A stretch of 48,888 bases of DNA from Deltaproteobacteria bacterium (GCA_024278765.1 JAJRSM010000002.1:1-48888); one strand, 5' to 3'; shown: positions 16,701 through 31,538, counted from the first letter of the stretch. A program made the numbers and translations. Notes: generated from the letters alone by a model not told the origin.

Positions 16701-16797
16701 GCCTTTAACGATTCTTATGACTGTCAGGTGTTACTGTAACTATAATATCTGCCGTCTTGAGCTCGTTTCAGCCCCAGATCCTTTGTGATTTTAAGTA

Positions 16798-16824
16798 CAG
16801 ATGCTGAACTAAATTCAGCATGAC
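16798..16824. repeat. Short dispersed palindrome (ATGCTGAA...TTCAGCAT)
   Basis: CAGATGCTGAACTAAATTCAGCATGAC folds as ATGCTGAA over TTCAGCAT. The reverse complement recurs at 31305-31331 with few changes. Confidence 0.75.
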
Positions 16825-16915
16825 ATGTTTTTCATTAAGCTTCCAACTATAGTACTTGTCATTACTGAACTGGTTTCAGAATTTGTCTTGTTGTAAGTCT
16901 TTGATCTTGCTGGGT

Positions 16916-22190: not shown

Positions 22191-22280
22191 TTATTTTGTT
22201 TTTTTGGTTGTTATGGTATCTCAGTAAGGTTTGAGTTTGCTTTTACCCCCCCTTTTGTAAAAGGGGGATACGGGATCTAT

Positions 22281-22324
22281 AAAAGCGAGATTGCTTCGTC
22301 GCTTTAAAAGCTCCTCGCAATGAC
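22281..22324 (+). repeat. TGTCATTGCGAG-family palindrome, right half
   Basis: It contains GCGAGATTGCTTCGTCG and ends CTCCTCGCAATGAC, as the right arm of the full copies at 24439, 25063 and 25531 does. Confidence 0.75.
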
Positions 22325-22389
22325 AATGAATTTTTACATAGTAGAAAACCAGCCGTCTAAGACGGGTTAAAGCTAAAGGTATCTATAAA

Positions 22390-23100: not shown

Positions 23101-23508
23101 ATGAAGATGAATATCAACAAAGACGAGATACAGAGTTACGCAATAGAGCAGCTTGAACGCATAAGCGGCGAGGCTACCAAGAATTGTTATCAGTGCGGTA
23201 ACTGCACCGGCGGTTGCCCTGTCTCTTACGAGATGGATATTGCTCCGAGTAAGATTATAAGGATGCTGCAGATAGGTAAGATCGAGGCGGTAAAGGCTGC
23301 CAATACGATGTGGCTCTGTGTTGGATGTTTGCAGTGTCATTCGCGTTGCCCGAAGTCAGTTAGTGTTGCCTCTGTGCTGGATGCGCTAAGGCAGGCGACT
23401 TTCAGAAGCGGCGCAGACCATATAGATGTAAAAGAAATCCCTGTTTCATTCTTGAAAAATACGCCACAGCAGGCGATAGTATGCGGATTTAGAAAATTTG
23501 TAAGTTAG
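23101..23508 (+). CDS. hdrC: Heterodisulfide reductase-like subunit C
   Basis: This is a soluble HdrC with two [4Fe-4S] motifs: CYQCGNCTGGCP (near 26-37) and CVGCLQCHSRCP (near 66-77). It relays electrons between HdrA and HdrB. I start at the ATG at 23101 (135 residues), because the longer frame from GTG at 23092 has no better ribosome site. It ends QQAIVCGFRKFVS at a TAG; many HdrC proteins run some 40 residues longer, so this is a short form. hdrB follows after 41 bases. Confidence 0.93.
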   Translation: MKMNINKDEIQSYAIEQLERISGEATKNCYQCGNCTGGCPVSYEMDIAPSKIIRMLQIGKIEAVKAANTMWLCVGCLQCHSRCPKSVSVASVLDALRQATFRSGADHIDVKEIPVSFLKNTPQQAIVCGFRKFVS

Positions 23509-24416: not shown

Positions 24417-24438
24417 TAAGTTAGGCAGGCAGTTTTTC

Positions 24439-24540
24439 TGTCATTGCGAGCGAAGCGAAGCAATCTCATCTTTGAAGTAATAGATTGCTTCGTCGCCAGA
24501 CCCCTTCGCTATGCTCGGGGTTGCGGCTCCTCGCAATGAC
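24439..24540 (+). repeat. TGTCATTGCGAG-family palindromic repeat, full copy
   Basis: It starts TGTCATTGCGAGCGAAGCGA and ends GGCTCCTCGCAATGAC. The ends are inverted (GTCATTGCGAG / CTCGCAATGAC) and an inner pair GCAATCT / AGATTGC adds a second stem. It lies just after hdrB. Confidence 0.9.
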
Positions 24541-24574
24541 GGAAGTGCTGAGTGGGTCAAGGGGAGTTTAGTCA

Positions 24575-25027: not shown

Positions 25028-25062
25028 GTAAGTTTTTGCAGGATAGTTAGAATTTATTTTTT

Positions 25063-25212
25063 TGTCATTGCGAGCGAAGAGGCGAAGCCTCGTAACGAAG
25101 CAATCTCGTTTTTAAAGAATAGATTGCTTCGTCGGCTTATGGCCTCCTCGCAATGACAAAAGTAACATGAAATCATTTCGTTGCTTTAGATCTCAAAAGG
25201 AACTCGCAATGA
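25063..25212 (+). repeat. TGTCATTGCGAG-family repeat, left flank of the GIY-YIG gene
   Basis: A full palindrome (25063-25157) plus an extra half unit ends CTCGCAATGAC at about 25202-25212. The sequence closely matches the copy at 25531-25684 over about 150 bases, including GATTGCTTCGTCGGCTTAT and ATGAAAT(C/T)NTTTCGTTGCTT. Confidence 0.9.
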
Positions 25213-25225
25213 CGGGTTGGTTGTT

Positions 25226-25522: not shown

Positions 25523-25530
25523 TATTTTTT

Positions 25531-25684
25531 TGTCATTGCGAGCGTAGGGGGTTCACCCCCGAATTGGGCGAAGCAATCTCGTCTTTAAAGTAATAGATTG
25601 CTTCGTCGGCTTATAGCCTCCTCGCAATGACAAGAGTAATATGAAATTGTTTCGTTGCTTTAAACCCCGAAAGGGGCTCGCAAT
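25531..25684 (+). repeat. TGTCATTGCGAG-family repeat, right flank of the GIY-YIG gene
   Basis: A full palindrome (25531-25631) plus an extra half unit ends GGGGCTCGCAATGAC. It differs from the left copy mainly by a GGGGGTTCACCCCC hairpin in its first arm. Confidence 0.9.
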
Positions 25685-25725
25685 GACGGAAGTACGGCAG
25701 TAATGGATCAAGGGGAATTTAGTAT

Positions 25726-27699
25726 ATGTCAAGGATAGGCGTCTTTGTATGCCAGTGCGGCAATAACATAGAGAGCACCGTTGATACCGGGCAGGTAGCC
25801 AGCGATATGAAGGAAATGCCCGGTGTGGTATTTTCCTGTACGTATAAGTTCATGTGTTCTTCGCCGGGTCAGGAGATGGTGCGTCAGGCCATTAAAGATA
25901 AACGCCTGGACGGCATCGTCGTATCGGCATGCTCTCCGCATATGCACGAGAAGACCTTCCGCAAGGCCAGCGAGAGCGCGGGGTTGAACCCCTATAAATG
26001 CGAGATAGTCAATATACGCGAGCAGTGCTCCTGGGTGCACCACGATACGACGAAAAAAATAGGCACGCGTAAAAGCAACGACCTGACGCGTATGATAATA
26101 GAGAGGCTCAAGAAGAACAAGCCGCTCAAAAAGATCAATATCCCTGTCAATAAGAAGGCGCTCGTCATCGGCGGCGGTATCGCCGGCATACAGGCGGCCC
26201 TTGATATCGCCGACGGCGGACGCGAGGTCATACTTGTCGAGAGAGAGCCGTCTATCGGCGGCAATATGGCAAGGCTCTCCGAGACCTTCCCTACGATGGA
26301 TTGTTCGCAGTGTATCTTGACGCCAAAGATGGTCGAGGCCGAGCTGCACGATAAAATAAAGATACTGACTTATTCAGAGGTCGAGAAACTCGACGGCTAT
26401 ATAGGTAACTTTACCGTAACGATAAAAAAGAAAGCAAAATACGTTGACGAATCGACATGCACGGGCTGTGGCGAATGTATGGAGAAGTGTCCGTTTAAGG
26501 CCGATAGCGAGTTCGAGCTGGGCCTTAATAAAAGAAAGGTCATCTATACGCCGTTTCCTCAGGCCGTGCCGAATATCCCGGTAATAGATGCGCCAAACTG
26601 CGTGATGCTTACAAAGGGCAAGTGCGGAATATGCGCAAAGGTCTGCGGCCCGGGCTCAATAGATTTCGAGCAGAAGGATGAATTTATAGAAGAGCAGGTC
26701 GGTGCGGTCGTTGTCGCGACTGGCTACGATCTTATGCCGAACGAACGCTTTGGTGAGTACGGCTACGGTAAGATAAAGGACGTAGTAAGCGGTATGCAGT
26801 TTGAGAGGCTCGCCTCTTCATCCGGGCCAACAGGTGGGCAGATCTTTAGGCCTTCGGATGGTAAGGTTCCCGAGCAGATTGTATTTTTGCAGTGCATCGG
26901 ATCAAGGGACGAGGCAAAGGGCGTATCGTACTGCTCTAAGATCTGCTGTATGTATACGGCAAAGCATACGATGCTTTATAAGCATAAGGTACACGACGGT
27001 CAGGCATATGTCTTTTATATGGATATCAGAGCCGGCGGTAAGAGGTACGAAGAATTTACTCGCCGTGCGCAGGAGCAGGAAGATGCTATGTACCTGCGAG
27101 GACGTGTTGCGCGAATATATGAACGTGACGGTAAAGTAGTCGTACAGGGCGCAGATACCCTAAGCGGAACGCAGGTTGTGATAGAGGCCGATATGGTCGT
27201 TCTAGCTACGGCTCTTGTCTCAAGGCCAGGGGCTGATTCTCTGGCGCAGAAGCTCGGTATTGGTTACGATAAATATAAGTTCTATAACGAGTATCATCCA
27301 AAACTTAAGCCGGTTGAGACCGTGACGGCTGGAATATTTTTATCTGGTGCCTGCGTTGGCCCGATGGATATCCCTGAGTCAGTTAGTATGGGTAGTGCCT
27401 CGGCAAGTAAGGTTTTGGCACTCTTCTCAAGCGATGAGATGGCTCGTGAGCCGATAGTTGCAGCCGTTAATAAGCAGCGCTGTAATGCTTGCTGGGACTG
27501 CGTTGTCGCGTGTCCGTATACGGCGATTGAAAAAGAAGAAGTTAAAGATAGGCAGGGCAATGTTATTGGTTGGAATGCCAATGTGAATGAAGGTGTTTGT
27601 CAGGGTTGTGGAGTCTGTGTTGCGGCGTGCCGCAGTAAGGTCGTGGATCTAGCCGGTTATACCGACGAACAGGTTTTTGCCGCCATCAACGCTTTTTAA
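25726..27699 (+). CDS. hdrA: Heterodisulfide reductase-like subunit A (FAD, bifurcating hub)
   Basis: HdrA binds FAD and is the flavin site of electron bifurcation in Hdr complexes. The 657-residue protein has an N-terminal cysteine domain (VFVCQCGNNI, then SACSPHMHEKTFR), an FAD domain starting VIGGGIAGIQAALDIA near 147, a CTGCGECMEKCP cluster near 246-257, a GKCGICAKVCGPGSI cluster near 305, YCSKICCMYTAKH, and two C-terminal [4Fe-4S] motifs (CNACWDCVVACP and CQGCGVCVAAC). It is full length, with GGGGAA before the ATG. No selenocysteine is needed. flxD follows after a repeat-filled 249-base gap. Confidence 0.96.
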   Translation: MSRIGVFVCQCGNNIESTVDTGQVASDMKEMPGVVFSCTYKFMCSSPGQEMVRQAIKDKRLDGIVVSACSPHMHEKTFRKASESAGLNPYKCEIVNIREQCSWVHHDTTKKIGTRKSNDLTRMIIERLKKNKPLKKINIPVNKKALVIGGGIAGIQAALDIADGGREVILVEREPSIGGNMARLSETFPTMDCSQCILTPKMVEAELHDKIKILTYSEVEKLDGYIGNFTVTIKKKAKYVDESTCTGCGECMEKCPFKADSEFELGLNKRKVIYTPFPQAVPNIPVIDAPNCVMLTKGKCGICAKVCGPGSIDFEQKDEFIEEQVGAVVVATGYDLMPNERFGEYGYGKIKDVVSGMQFERLASSSGPTGGQIFRPSDGKVPEQIVFLQCIGSRDEAKGVSYCSKICCMYTAKHTMLYKHKVHDGQAYVFYMDIRAGGKRYEEFTRRAQEQEDAMYLRGRVARIYERDGKVVVQGADTLSGTQVVIEADMVVLATALVSRPGADSLAQKLGIGYDKYKFYNEYHPKLKPVETVTAGIFLSGACVGPMDIPESVSMGSASASKVLALFSSDEMAREPIVAAVNKQRCNACWDCVVACPYTAIEKEEVKDRQGNVIGWNANVNEGVCQGCGVCVAACRSKVVDLAGYTDEQVFAAINAF

Positions 27700-27703
27700 C
27701 TTG

Positions 27704-27843
27704 TTCGCACTCATAAACGTTCATATACGTTGTCGGGATTTTAGATTTGAAGCCTCACGTACTTAATAGTACGCTCCGTTTCCAATCTTCATCCCTCCTA
27801 GTATATGAAGCGTTTCTGAGCACGAAGTGGGAAAAGGCAAGAC
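27704..27843 (+). repeat. Second repeat family, copy A (after hdrA)
   Basis: It starts TTCGCACTCATAAACG, holds an inner CGTAC-ttaata-GTACG stem and ends TTTCTGAGCACGAAGTGGGA. Copies B (29886) and C (31135) match these three blocks in the same order and spacing. Confidence 0.85.
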
Positions 27844-27865
27844 ATAAAAAATAAGACAGTTGTAG

Positions 27866-27882
27866 GGTGGGCTGTGCCCACC
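27866..27882. repeat. GGTGGGC-TGT-GCCCACC hairpin
   Basis: This perfect 7-bp palindrome is preceded by TGTAG. A truncated relative (TGTAGGGTGGTACAG) is near 31401. It looks like a separate small dispersed repeat. Confidence 0.6.
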
Positions 27883-27890
27883 AATTAGTA

Positions 27891-27934
27891 GTTGCGAGCG
27901 TAGGGTCAAAGACCCGTAGCAAAGCAATTTCATT
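27891..27934 (+). repeat. TGTCATTGCGAG-family repeat, left half
   Basis: TTGCGAGCGTAGGGTC, then AAAGCAATTTCATT, resembles the left arm of the copy at 25531. The right half is missing. Confidence 0.6.
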
Positions 27935-27948
27935 AAAAGGAAAAATAT

Positions 27949-28455
27949 ATGTCAGAAGAATTGAAAAAAGTAGCCACGGGCTTTGAACCGAAGATAATGG
28001 CATTTGTCTGCAACTGGTGTACCTACGCCGGAGCCGACCTGGCAGGAACAAGCCGGATGGAATATAAAGACAACGTCCGTATTATTAAGCTGCCGTGCAC
28101 AGGGCGTATCGATCCTTTATTTATTATTAAGGCCTTTGAAAACGGCGCGGACGGCGTGCTCGTCTCTGGCTGTCATCCGGGGGATTGCCATTATACGACA
28201 GGCAACTATCATGCCAGAAGGCGTTGGCGTGCATTTAAAAACCTGATGGACTTTACCGGCATTGACGAGACGAGGTTGCAGTTTTCTTGGGTCTCGGCCT
28301 CCGAGGCACTTAAATGGGTAGACCTTATTAATAAGGTGACGACGCAGGTAAAGGCAGCAGGGCCTTTTATCGAGTATCAGGGGCTTAGTGAAAAGTACGA
28401 TGACGGCCTTGGCGAACTGCCTGCTGAGACCGAGGGGGAGTCAAAAGAATGTTAG
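27949..28455 (+). CDS. flxD: MvhD/FlxD-like [2Fe-2S] electron-transfer subunit
   Basis: MvhD-type proteins hand electrons from an input module to HdrA. The 168 residues show the family cysteines: FVCNWCTYAGADLAGTSR (near 19-36), KLPCTGR (near 48), and the GCHPGDCHY motif followed by TGNYHARRR (near 74-92). In Flx-Hdr clusters this subunit bridges HdrA and FlxABC. Its last seven bases overlap the next gene, so the two are translationally coupled. The stop is TAG. Confidence 0.93.
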   Translation: MSEELKKVATGFEPKIMAFVCNWCTYAGADLAGTSRMEYKDNVRIIKLPCTGRIDPLFIIKAFENGADGVLVSGCHPGDCHYTTGNYHARRRWRAFKNLMDFTGIDETRLQFSWVSASEALKWVDLINKVTTQVKAAGPFIEYQGLSEKYDDGLGELPAETEGESKEC

Positions 28456-28958
28456 TCCCAAAAGAGATGACAGACGAGGCCATTGGCCTGCGTGATGCTT
28501 TTACCGATATGCTTAAGTCGCGTGGCTATGAGGTTTTTAAGCGCGATTCCTTTATGGTTACCCGTAAGGATCAGATCGTTCATCTTATACAGAACGAGGA
28601 TGTATCCGGGATACTCTTTGTAAGGGTCTCTAAGCAGGAAGAAGGCCTCTGGGTTATCTACCCGGATAACTTCCGTGCATTCTCAGAGATGACAAATGCC
28701 GATGAGAATACCGGGATGTTTCTGGTTTTTCTGGATGATACAACGGCAACCGATAATAGCTTTAGAGGGGTCTTTCTGACCTCTGAAAATATAGACAAGA
28801 TTGGCCCGACCTTTGAATTAAATGATGACGGACGAATAGATATCACAGGCGAGCAGCTTAGGAAGGAATTCCCTAATAACTGGTTTACGACCTTTGATGA
28901 GTGTCTTACGATGCTGGAAGCCCCCGGGCTCTGTAATTATAAGGGCCTTGAAGGATAA
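28449..28958 (+). CDS. Uncharacterised protein embedded in the hdr-flx operon
   Basis: I do not recognise this 169-residue soluble protein. It begins at an ATG overlapping the flxD stop and ends 19 bases before flxC, so it is translationally embedded in the operon. Mixed alpha/beta composition is suggested (HLIQNEDVSGILFVRVSK; GMFLVFLDDTTATDNSFRGV), with only two cysteines (DECLTML and GLCNYKG) near the C-terminus, no cluster motif and no membrane helix. Its position between the HdrA-binding subunit and the Fe-S input subunits suggests an accessory, assembly or regulatory subunit of the complex. Confidence 0.85.
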   Translation: MLVPKEMTDEAIGLRDAFTDMLKSRGYEVFKRDSFMVTRKDQIVHLIQNEDVSGILFVRVSKQEEGLWVIYPDNFRAFSEMTNADENTGMFLVFLDDTTATDNSFRGVFLTSENIDKIGPTFELNDDGRIDITGEQLRKEFPNNWFTTFDECLTMLEAPGLCNYKGLEG

Positions 28959-28977
28959 AGAGAAGGTAGAGAGGAAT

Positions 28978-29883
28978 ATGGAAGCAGAACTTAGAGAGAA
29001 GGCAAAGGAACTTTTAGGCTCTGGCGAGATCGGGGTCGTAATAGGTTTCGGCTGGAATAAGCGTAAGACCAGAACGACCCCTGTATTTATTACAAAGGCA
29101 GAAGATACAGATAAGCTCGTCTTCAACGCCTATTGCGTAAATAATCTTTCGGTCTATCTAACGCGTAAATACCCTGACGTAAAGGCAATGGGCAAGGCCG
29201 CTATAGTTGCAAAGGGCTGCGATATAAAGAACCTTGCCGTTATGATCGCTGAAGGTCAGTTCAAGCGTGATGATACCTATATAATAGGTATGACCTGCTC
29301 GGGTGTTGGTTATAAGCAGGAACTCATTGAGGCAAATGGCGGAGAGCTGAAGCCTGAAATCATGCCGGTAAAGTGCCATAACTGTGACGTGCGTAATCCG
29401 CATATAAGTGACGCTGTGATAGGAGAGACCACAGATTTTACCCCGCCCGAAGAACCGGTAGGGATGGTCTTTGATAAGATTAAACAAATAGAAGCGATGG
29501 ACGCTAAAGGTCGCTTTGGTTTTTGGGAGGAGCATTTCTCAAGGTGCATAAAGTGCTATGCTTGTCGCCAAGTCTGTTCGTTATGTTATTGCGACAGGTG
29601 TATTACCGATAAGAATACGCCGCAGTGGATCGATAGCTCGGCGCACGCCCGTGGCAATTTTTCTTGGAATCTAGTCCGTGCGATGCATCTGACAGGGCGC
29701 TGTACCTTCTGCGGAGAATGTGAGAGGGCGTGCCCGGTTAATATTCCGCTTAACGTAATTAATAAAAAGATGGCGGTTGTTATGGAAGATGCCTTTGATC
29801 ACCGCTCTGGTTATGACCCGGAGGTGCATCCGCCGATGATTGTTTTTGATATTGAAAACGACAAGGAAGAGTTTATAAAGTAG
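28978..29883 (+). CDS. flxC: Fe-S subunit of an Flx-type NADH oxidoreductase
   Basis: This 301-residue protein has an N-terminal domain of the coenzyme F420 hydrogenase-beta/MetV-like kind (conserved TCSGVG and CHNCDVRNP) and a C-terminal ferredoxin part: CIKCYACRQVCSLCYCDRC (near 196-214) and CTFCGECERACP (near 248-259). I start at the ATG at 28978 behind AGAGAGG; an earlier frame start at 28894 lies within the preceding gene. Order and domains match FlxC of the FlxABCD-HdrABC complexes. Which of the two Fe-S genes here is B and which is C is assigned by order only. The stop is TAG. Confidence 0.8.
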   Translation: MEAELREKAKELLGSGEIGVVIGFGWNKRKTRTTPVFITKAEDTDKLVFNAYCVNNLSVYLTRKYPDVKAMGKAAIVAKGCDIKNLAVMIAEGQFKRDDTYIIGMTCSGVGYKQELIEANGGELKPEIMPVKCHNCDVRNPHISDAVIGETTDFTPPEEPVGMVFDKIKQIEAMDAKGRFGFWEEHFSRCIKCYACRQVCSLCYCDRCITDKNTPQWIDSSAHARGNFSWNLVRAMHLTGRCTFCGECERACPVNIPLNVINKKMAVVMEDAFDHRSGYDPEVHPPMIVFDIENDKEEFIK

Positions 29884-29885
29884 TT

Positions 29886-30084
29886 TTCACGTCCGTAAAT
29901 GACCATAGGCGTTGTCATGGCTGCGGTGTCAAGTCCTCACGTACCCTACAAGTACGTTGCGGTTTAACACCTTGCCCTTCCTAGCCTTTGGAACATTTAC
30001 AAACGTGAATTTGGAGATACCATATTGTGCCCCGAAGGGGCTTTGCTTCCGGTGCAACCGGTCTGAGCACGAAGTGGGAAAGAC
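29886..30084 (+). repeat. Second repeat family, copy B (after flxC), with insert
   Basis: It has the same blocks as copy A: TCACGTCCGTAAATGACC, the CGTAC-cctacaa-GTACG stem, CTTCCTAGC, then TCTGAGCACGAAGTGGGAAA. About 60 bases (30002-30061, with a CCCCGAAGGGG hairpin) are inserted before the last block. It ends 35 bases before the flxB ATG. Confidence 0.82.
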
Positions 30085-30119
30085 AAAACAAGACAAGGCA
30101 AAGAAGGCATAAAGAATTT

Positions 30120-31127
30120 ATGATTAAAACACTATTTAAAAAAGATGCTCTGGCTGGATTAATTGAAGCCGTAAGAAAGGACGGTGGCGAGTTCGTCGCT
30201 CCGACTCTGGTGGCTCGCCAGGCAAGTTATAAGGCTGTTACCGACGCGGCGGCTATTGAGACCGATTATATCGTTCCGCAGAATTCTTTTAAGGAAGTCC
30301 TCTTTCCTCAGAGCGAGGCGATAGCGACCTTTAAAGAGGCCGGAACTAATATGGCTGGCGTAGAGGTCAATGCAAAGGATACCGTTGTTTTCGGTTCGCG
30401 TCCGTGTGACGCTGCGAGTGTAGCGTCGCTTAGAAGCGTCTTTACATGGGACTTCGTAGATGAGTTCTATACCACGCGCGAAGACAAGGCTGTGGTAATA
30501 AGCATAGCCTGTACAAAAGGCGATAGCTCTTGCTTCTGTACATCCGTAGGGCTCGCACCAGATGCCACAGAGGGTAGTGACGTCCTTCTGCGGGAGACCG
30601 AGGACGGCGACTTCTCGGCAGAGGCAGTAACAGATAAGGGTAAGACCTTTGTAAAGAAGCATAAGGACGTCTTTACTACGTGTAAGGCCGCTAAAGAAAT
30701 AGCGATATTCGAGCCTGTTAAGCTAGACAAGGTAGATCTTGATAAGGTAGGCGAGTCGCTAGCCGATACGACCCATTACGATAACGACAAGATGTGGGGA
30801 GATATCGCACGGAAGTGCATAGGCTGCGGAGCATGTACTTATTCGTGCCCGACCTGCCATTGTTTTGATATCGTTGATGAGGGCTCGTTCTTCGAGGGCG
30901 AGAGGCGCAAGAACTGGGATGCATGCCAGTTTGACTTTTTTACGTTGCATGCCAGCGGCCATAATCCCAGAGATACGCAGTATAAAAGGTGGCGTAACCG
31001 CTTTATGTGTAAGTTTAAGATATACCCCGGGAAGTTCAAGACCAAGGGATGTGTTGGTTGCGGGCGGTGCGTAAGGGTTTGTCCGGTTCGTCTGGATATA
31101 ACAGAGGTTATGGAAGAATTATCGTAA
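30120..31127 (+). CDS. flxB: Fe-S subunit of an Flx-type NADH oxidoreductase (AsrA/HydB-like)
   Basis: This 335-residue protein resembles AsrA/HydB-type [4Fe-4S] dicluster subunits. The N-terminal domain contains FGSRPCDAASVASL and CTKGDSSCFCTSVG. Two clusters follow, CIGCGACTYSCPTCHC (near 225-240) and CVGCGRCVRVCP (near 312-323). I start at the ATG at 30120, because the longer frame from 30027 would begin inside the copy B repeat. With the FAD/NAD subunit downstream it forms the NADH-oxidising input of Flx-Hdr. The B/C letter is assigned by gene order. Confidence 0.83.
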   Translation: MIKTLFKKDALAGLIEAVRKDGGEFVAPTLVARQASYKAVTDAAAIETDYIVPQNSFKEVLFPQSEAIATFKEAGTNMAGVEVNAKDTVVFGSRPCDAASVASLRSVFTWDFVDEFYTTREDKAVVISIACTKGDSSCFCTSVGLAPDATEGSDVLLRETEDGDFSAEAVTDKGKTFVKKHKDVFTTCKAAKEIAIFEPVKLDKVDLDKVGESLADTTHYDNDKMWGDIARKCIGCGACTYSCPTCHCFDIVDEGSFFEGERRKNWDACQFDFFTLHASGHNPRDTQYKRWRNRFMCKFKIYPGKFKTKGCVGCGRCVRVCPVRLDITEVMEELS

Positions 31128-31134
31128 TACATGT

Positions 31135-31268
31135 TTCGCACTCATAAATGACCTGCTGCGTTGTCAGGACTTCAAGCTCTAATCCTTACGTACCTAAAAG
31201 TACGTTGCGGTAAAAGCCTTTTTCCTTCCTAGCATCAGGAAGATTTCTGAGCACGAATTGGGAAAGGT
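31135..31268 (+). repeat. Second repeat family, copy C (after flxB)
   Basis: It starts TTCGCACTCATAAATGACC, has the inner CGTACctaaaaGTACG stem and CTTCCTAGCAT, and ends ATTTCTGAGCACGAATTGGG. The outer ends form an imperfect inverted repeat (TTCGCACTCATAAAT against TTCGTGCTCAGAAAT). Confidence 0.85.
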
Positions 31269-31304
31269 AAGAATGTTTTACAAAGAGGTGAAGGTTGTAA
31301 ATTT

Positions 31305-31331
31305 GTCATGCTGAATTTATTTCAGCATCTG
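31305..31331. repeat. Short dispersed palindrome (ATGCTGAA...TTCAGCAT)
   Basis: GTCATGCTGAA-tttat-TTCAGCATCTG is the reverse complement, with few changes, of the element at 16798-16824. Confidence 0.75.
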
Positions 31332-31340
31332 TTTTTAAAA

Positions 31341-31385: not shown

Positions 31386-31425
31386 AAATAAAGGTGGTTT
31401 TGTAGGGTGGTACAGTTTGCTAAAT

Positions 31426-31538
31426 TGTCATTGCGAGGAGTTTTAAAACGACGAAGCAATCTATTTTTTAAAAAGCGAGATTGCTTCGTTTAATCGTTTA
31501 AGACGGGTTGTCGCGAAAAGATCAGCATCACAATGATC
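31426..31538 (+). repeat. TGTCATTGCGAG-family repeat, diverged full copy
   Basis: It begins TGTCATTGCGAGGAG, contains GAAGCAATCT and AGATTGCTTCG in inverted order, and ends CACAATGATC. Confidence 0.7.

Follow-up and report, generated by a model that had tools for sequence, protein, structure and literature searches.

Hairpin elements behind hdrA, flxC and flxB of a deltaproteobacterium: probable travelling DNA from a putative branch of the ERIC superfamily

The window, i.e., the whole stretch of 48,888 nucleotides that was analysed (Deltaproteobacteria bacterium, GCA_024278765.1, JAJRSM010000002.1:1-48888), contains an hdr-flx operon region in which the genes considered here all lie on the plus strand: an hdrC-like gene of 135 aa (23101..23508), an hdrA-like gene (25726..27699), a flxD-like gene with an FlpD/MvhD domain (27949..28455), a flxC-like gene with Fe-S domains (28981..29883) and a flxB-like gene with Fer4_22 (30120..31127). 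Between flxD and flxC, positions 28449-28958 encode a protein of 169 aa without Pfam or NCBIfam match; of the other 45 hdr-flx loci looked at, just two (G002 and G005) give a tblastn match.

Directly behind hdrA, flxC and flxB stand three full elements (R1, R2 and R3, plus strand), each of them one long imperfect hairpin of about 125 nt. R1 (27704..27826; 122 bits with the covariance model) starts 4 nt past the hdrA stop codon (27697-27699), R2 (29886..30009; 117.5 bits) 2 nt past that of flxC (29881-29883) and R3 (31135..31257; 124 bits) 7 nt past that of flxB (31125-31127). For the elements, sense means the orientation of the upstream gene. The first-pass annotation had given these starts, the shared orientation and the placement behind the three genes correctly. 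The ordered blocks that it regarded as shared are indeed similar but not identical, since R1 has TTCGCACTCATAAACG and CCTCCTAGT. The block TCTGAGCACGAAGTGGGAAA, which it ascribed to R2, actually lies 52 nt beyond the R2 hairpin (30062..30082, plus strand), where it is the leftover 3' arm of an R1-type copy; this orphan arm (TCTGAGCACGAAGTGGGAAAG) shows no pairing with the 5' arm of R2.

Over 131 nt, R1 and R3 share 71% identity, and BLAST of the own genome with R3 as query returns R1 at 2.9e-13 and R2 at 7.9e-11. R2 has its own divergent arms (TTCACGTCCGTAAATG...CATTTACAAACGTGAA), different from those of R1 and R3. The core of the element reads, on the sense strand, TCTGCGTTGTCAGG...TCCTCACRTAC-loop-GTAYGCTSCGG...CCTTCCTAGCATC. 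The z-scores against shuffled sequences, for the better strand, are −7.1 for R1 (RNA), −4.5 for R3 (RNA) and −5.6 for R2 (DNA). In the case of R3 the mRNA strand folds poorly (z −0.5) and the complementary strand well (z −4.5). The element is a long imperfect hairpin whose arms change freely and covary around a conserved core of internal loops.

Eight full copies are found in the genome by BLAST and by the R1 covariance model (built from 21 sequences): besides the three of the window, contig 4 has two, and contigs 26, 28 and 92 have one each; fragments occur as well. The genome-wide search with such a model, proposed in the first-pass annotation, does therefore yield further full copies. The genes upstream of the copies outside the window are unrelated (dihydrolipoyl dehydrogenase, aspartate kinase, an aminotransferase, a PmbA-like protein and others). 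In a tree of 57 copies, drawn from a short alignment and with rough support values, R1 falls together with the copy that follows dihydrolipoyl dehydrogenase on contig 4 (100/99) and R3 with the copies of contigs 26 and 28 (96/86), and R2 stands apart. Since the window copies cluster with copies elsewhere, they are separate insertions of a dispersed family, and the local duplication of one copy inside the operon is rejected on the same tree. The elements are thus not specific to the hdr-flx operon. The hdrC copies from four species of one genus also cluster, as do the hdrA copies of G032 and G024, which means that some sites are inherited. On contig 53, at about 60246-60640, three tandem 5' half-elements plus adjoining sequence are present; this suggests slippage or amplification of half-elements.

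A search of about 85,000 genomes for the exact core pattern gives 15 stretches, which all belong to MAGs labelled Deltaproteobacteria, Proteobacteria or plain bacterium. Model R1 (E<=1e-8) has matches in 38 of the 63 class genomes and in 10 of the 198 genomes sampled from the phylum; model R2, which represents a second subfamily (49 sequences), has matches in 41 of the 198 at E<=1e-6. Up to dozens of copies are found per genome, and these counts from model searches are lower bounds since only the top candidates per genome were scored. The plasmid collection searched with the hdrA-flxB region gives no match. Rfam yields no family at the gathering score and nothing relevant at a relaxed threshold. 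A full-text literature search for the core sequences and for ERIC in Deltaproteobacteria finds no description of these elements.

Gene contexts were established from our own open-reading-frame calls, not from curated annotation. On this basis a sense stop codon lies within −15..+10 nt of the start of the element in 44 of the 60 high-scoring copies (within −3..+5 in 39), while an antisense stop in the same range at the other end is found in 3. The corresponding values for the 48 lower-scoring copies are 35 (31 within −3..+5) and 2. Position and orientation, a point that the first-pass annotation had left to be checked, are thus non-random in the pooled classes (79 of 108 copies at a sense stop vs. 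5 antisense). Seventeen further copies come from 17 genomes, mostly of other families of the phylum, and were not used in finding the stop-codon rule; 11 of them start between −1 and +6 of a sense stop. The distance from the element to the next gene is variable, and many copies are intra-operonic with the next sense gene 14-60 nt on. REPs, i.e., intergenic palindromes, are also localized near the 3' end of the upstream ORF, often within 20 bp and sometimes providing the stop codon, with varying distances to the downstream ORF (Di Nocera et al., PMC3733652). Proximity to a stop codon is therefore not new by itself; in the present elements the rule is stricter and orientation-specific.

The automatic consensus structure misses the lower stem because the arms of different genomes are misaligned; the arms were analysed by anchoring. 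The outer arms vary between genomes yet stay complementary, with three or four Watson-Crick types at most outer positions and all four types at many of them (57 copies). The pairing of own arms amounts to −25.6 kcal/mol vs. −15.4 kcal/mol with the arms of other genomes. The outer arms thus show the compensatory changes whose inspection had been suggested.

The strand complementary to the mRNA is the more stable one in 54 of 60, 47 of 48 and 17 of 17 copies (118 of 125 in total, the copies being not independent, in this count as in that of mismatches). The consensus fold gives −34.3 kcal/mol for the complementary strand vs. −14.9 kcal/mol for the mRNA strand. Arm mismatches on the mRNA strand, scored symmetrically, comprise 80 A.C and 25 G.T. 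This excess of A.C means that the mismatches of the complementary strand are mostly G.T pairs, by which the helix is kept. The opposite pattern would be expected from cytosine deamination on the coding strand, a common bias. The conserved TC/TC loops of the mRNA strand correspond to tandem GA/GA on its complement. In the middle stem, however, the ratio is reversed (G.T 43, A.C 22, on a crude alignment), which counts against the strand asymmetry. In our reading, it is the complementary strand whose fold is conserved, most simply in the form of single-stranded DNA, and the results point to a DNA hairpin selected for mobility rather than to an mRNA structure. Given the better fold of the complementary strand and the A.C mismatches, covariation alone lends no support to the control of subunit ratios. 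RNA structures setting the ratios of Hdr/Flx subunits had been put forward; as the reason for the conserved structure they are not supported, since the complementary strand is favoured and the elements follow many unrelated metabolic genes.

The R1 and R2 models were also run without filters on 46.5 kb of E. coli sequence that surrounds ERIC elements. Seven matches are obtained with model R1 (E<=2), all seven on E. coli ERICs, and nine with model R2, of which eight are on ERICs. Since the individual scores are low (12-24 bits) and several matches are near-identical copies, a control with pair-preserving decoys was added. With the profile of the delta elements in global alignment, four ERIC copies are 3.6 to 7.3 SD above the pair-shuffled decoys, and none of the 240 decoys reaches the scores of the ERIC copies. 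No ERIC match is reported by nhmmer.

Like ERIC (also IRU or RU-1), the elements are single long imperfect stem-loops (about 127 nt for ERIC, about 125 here) present in multiple intergenic copies, with the same order and spacing of motifs (TGCTGCGT, TTCG, TCAC-TTAC..GTAAGCTCC, GCCTTCCTGCA). ERIC too folds better on the complementary strand, in all seven full-length E. coli copies tested, and three E. coli loci start 2-7 nt past a sense stop. On the contrary, most E. coli copies do not, and the orientation and stop-codon rule of the present elements is far stricter than that of the E. coli copies examined. The overall similarity is low (again 12-24 bits), and the hosts are Deltaproteobacteria, whereas ERIC is found in Enterobacteriaceae and Vibrionaceae (PMC10969869). 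The TA ends that are typical of ERIC are scarce, TA being near both ends in just 6 of 57 strong copies. No target-site duplication is visible, repeats in the flanks being no longer than with shuffled partners. The ERIC matches and the shared strand asymmetry, together with the absence of TA ends and duplications, lead to the elements being filed as a putative new, deltaproteobacterial branch of the ERIC superfamily and not as ERIC itself.

In a survey of 46 genomes read by eye, an element or a remnant is found directly after hdrA, at the junction with flxD, in 17, and at least four subfamilies are represented. The empty hdrA junctions are often short (14-86 nt). Elements stand after hdrC or flxB in other genomes; the 3' end of hdrC is occupied in six genera and free in the window. 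The high-scoring class was seeded from R3, and its concentration in the hdr-flx operon is therefore in part an effect of that seeding, to which the hdrA survey is less exposed. Occupancy of the operon looks above chance (17 of 46 hdrA junctions, by eye). Phosphofructokinase, dihydrolipoyl dehydrogenase and phoU (the last in three genera) are further genes that are followed by an element more than once. The hdrA copy of G020 has lost its inner half at a GGGC microhomology, another repeat is inserted in the apical loop of the element in G053, G057 and G062, and the hdrC-hdrB interval of G016 holds a 5' half-copy and a full inverted copy. These are marks of mobile DNA that is not strictly needed. 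A different repeat, CCCCTTTTCTAAAGGGGGC, lies directly past the hdrA stop in G016, G046, G036 and G027, all without an element there, so that this site may attract inserted repeats in general.

Among other known systems, the RAYT-associated REP palindromes are 20-40 bp long and carry a GTAG or CGTC tag. The present elements have 125 nt, no tag and no consistent Y1 transposase, and the REP reading was rejected. The search for a Y1 transposase (PF01797, E<=1e-5) gives a match in G000 and 26 other genomes and none in the copy-bearing G016, G018, G020, G023, G029, G032, G035 and G052. Several of the genomes lacking it are rich in copies, including G016, which is a single contig; no transposase partner is thus found by the search of this family. 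The best Y1 match of G000 (contig 76, 5660-6022) has an internal in-frame TAG. The Chunjie MITE of Geobacter uraniireducens is likewise a non-autonomous intergenic repeat of a deltaproteobacterium, with one copy in an operon (PMC10969869). By its description it differs from the present elements, being 178-235 bp long with terminal inverted and direct repeats.

R1, R2 and R3 are best explained, with a probability of about 0.6, as independent insertions of a non-autonomous mobile hairpin from a branch of the ERIC superfamily. An interspersed repeat of about 125 nt, itself non-autonomous, would have inserted three times independently. Its conserved fold would be a DNA hairpin on the complementary strand, through which a factor acting in trans would mobilise the element. 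Copies would be kept mainly at stop codons because a hairpin is least harmful there in compact operons, and any effect on the stability or translation of hdr/flx mRNA would be secondary, possibly a by-product. In other words, the elements are probably DNA that travels rather than dials made for the hdr-flx operon. The MITE-like alternative of the first-pass annotation gains from the additional copies, their non-local clustering, the half-copies, nested insertions and inner deletion, and the relatives in many genomes. The missing Y1 partner, the missing target-site duplication and the reversed mismatch ratio of the middle stem count against this explanation, and so do two further points: selection against harmful insertions would not obviously produce an anchor of −3..+5 nt, and a purely selfish element need not occupy the hdr-flx operon above chance.

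A less probable but serious reading is that the hairpins act at the 3' end of the mRNA, where they would alter ribosome release, tmRNA tagging or RNase attack at the stop codon and so determine how much of the upstream subunit is made. Similar effects on the upstream gene have been reported for E. coli REPs that lie near stop codons. The sense orientation and the start a few nt from the stop in most copies agree with such a role, as do the repeated occupation of the same operon and of the 3' ends of phoU, phosphofructokinase and dihydrolipoyl dehydrogenase in different genera, and the vertical inheritance of copies behind hdrC and hdrA within some genera. Moreover, according to a review (PMC2229807), the upstream transcript is destabilised by ERIC in Yersinia, and the effect depends on orientation. 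Nevertheless, the selected fold is on the other strand, G016 carries its full copy inverted between hdrC and hdrB, G020 has an hdrA copy without the inner half, and most genomes are element-free at any given junction.

The better fold of the complementary strand could also be that of a structured RNA, either antisense or stand-alone; its possible tandem G.A loops (GCTAGGAAGGAC/GTCCTGACAACGC) are of a kind frequent in structured RNAs. This is unlikely: the next gene is usually in the same direction, so that no natural antisense transcript is expected, Rfam gives no match and the copies reach dozens per genome. A stable bottom strand, a position past the stop codon, a fixed orientation and an imperfect palindrome of about 130 nt are likewise features of integron attC sites. 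It is very improbable, however, that the elements are attC-like recombination sites behind each gene, because the outer RYYYAAC / GTTRRRY (R/L) boxes are not seen on inspection, the arm ends differ between genomes, conservation is central instead of terminal, and the genes are those of ordinary metabolic operons, not cassette arrays. Intrinsic terminators are hardly to be expected either; long hairpins right past stop codons, with TTTTT within the 3' arm in some subfamilies, would suit them, but the window copies have no U-run and the next sense gene is, as stated, often 14-60 nt on within the same operon.

The elements also bear on ERIC itself, which is used worldwide for typing although no origin, mobiliser or strand of action is known for it. 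ERIC has been placed in two gammaproteobacterial families (PMC10969869), and a related family would now be present in another phylum. The stricter orientation and position and the measurable strand asymmetry are new material on the nature of ERIC; from the asymmetry one would expect the complementary (DNA) strand to be the working form. A bolder idea, conceivable but doubtful, concerns the ERIC superfamily as a whole, in Deltaproteobacteria and in Gammaproteobacteria alike: its elements would move as single-stranded hairpins formed by the template strand of the gene, and their integration or retention would be linked to translation termination, which would give one orientation exactly at stop codons. 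If true, the factor and this coupling would constitute a new kind of target choice. A caution also follows, i.e., covarying hairpins past stop codons are not automatically mRNA regulators.

The operon region contains other repeats. A different palindromic repeat, GTCATTGCGAGCGAAGC...GAAGCAATCTC...CTCCTCGCAATGAC, has several copies in spacers (22276-22338, 24431-24546, 25055-25163, 25523-25693 and 31424-31491). The hdrB-hdrA interval contains a direct repeat of 106 nt with 87% identity (25110-25215 and 25584-25689). A further family of short palindromic repeats is represented by a 42-nt inverted pair, GTCATGCTGAATTTATTTCAGCATCTG, at 16789-16830 and 31299-31340; a stretch similar to it adjoins the contig-26 element.
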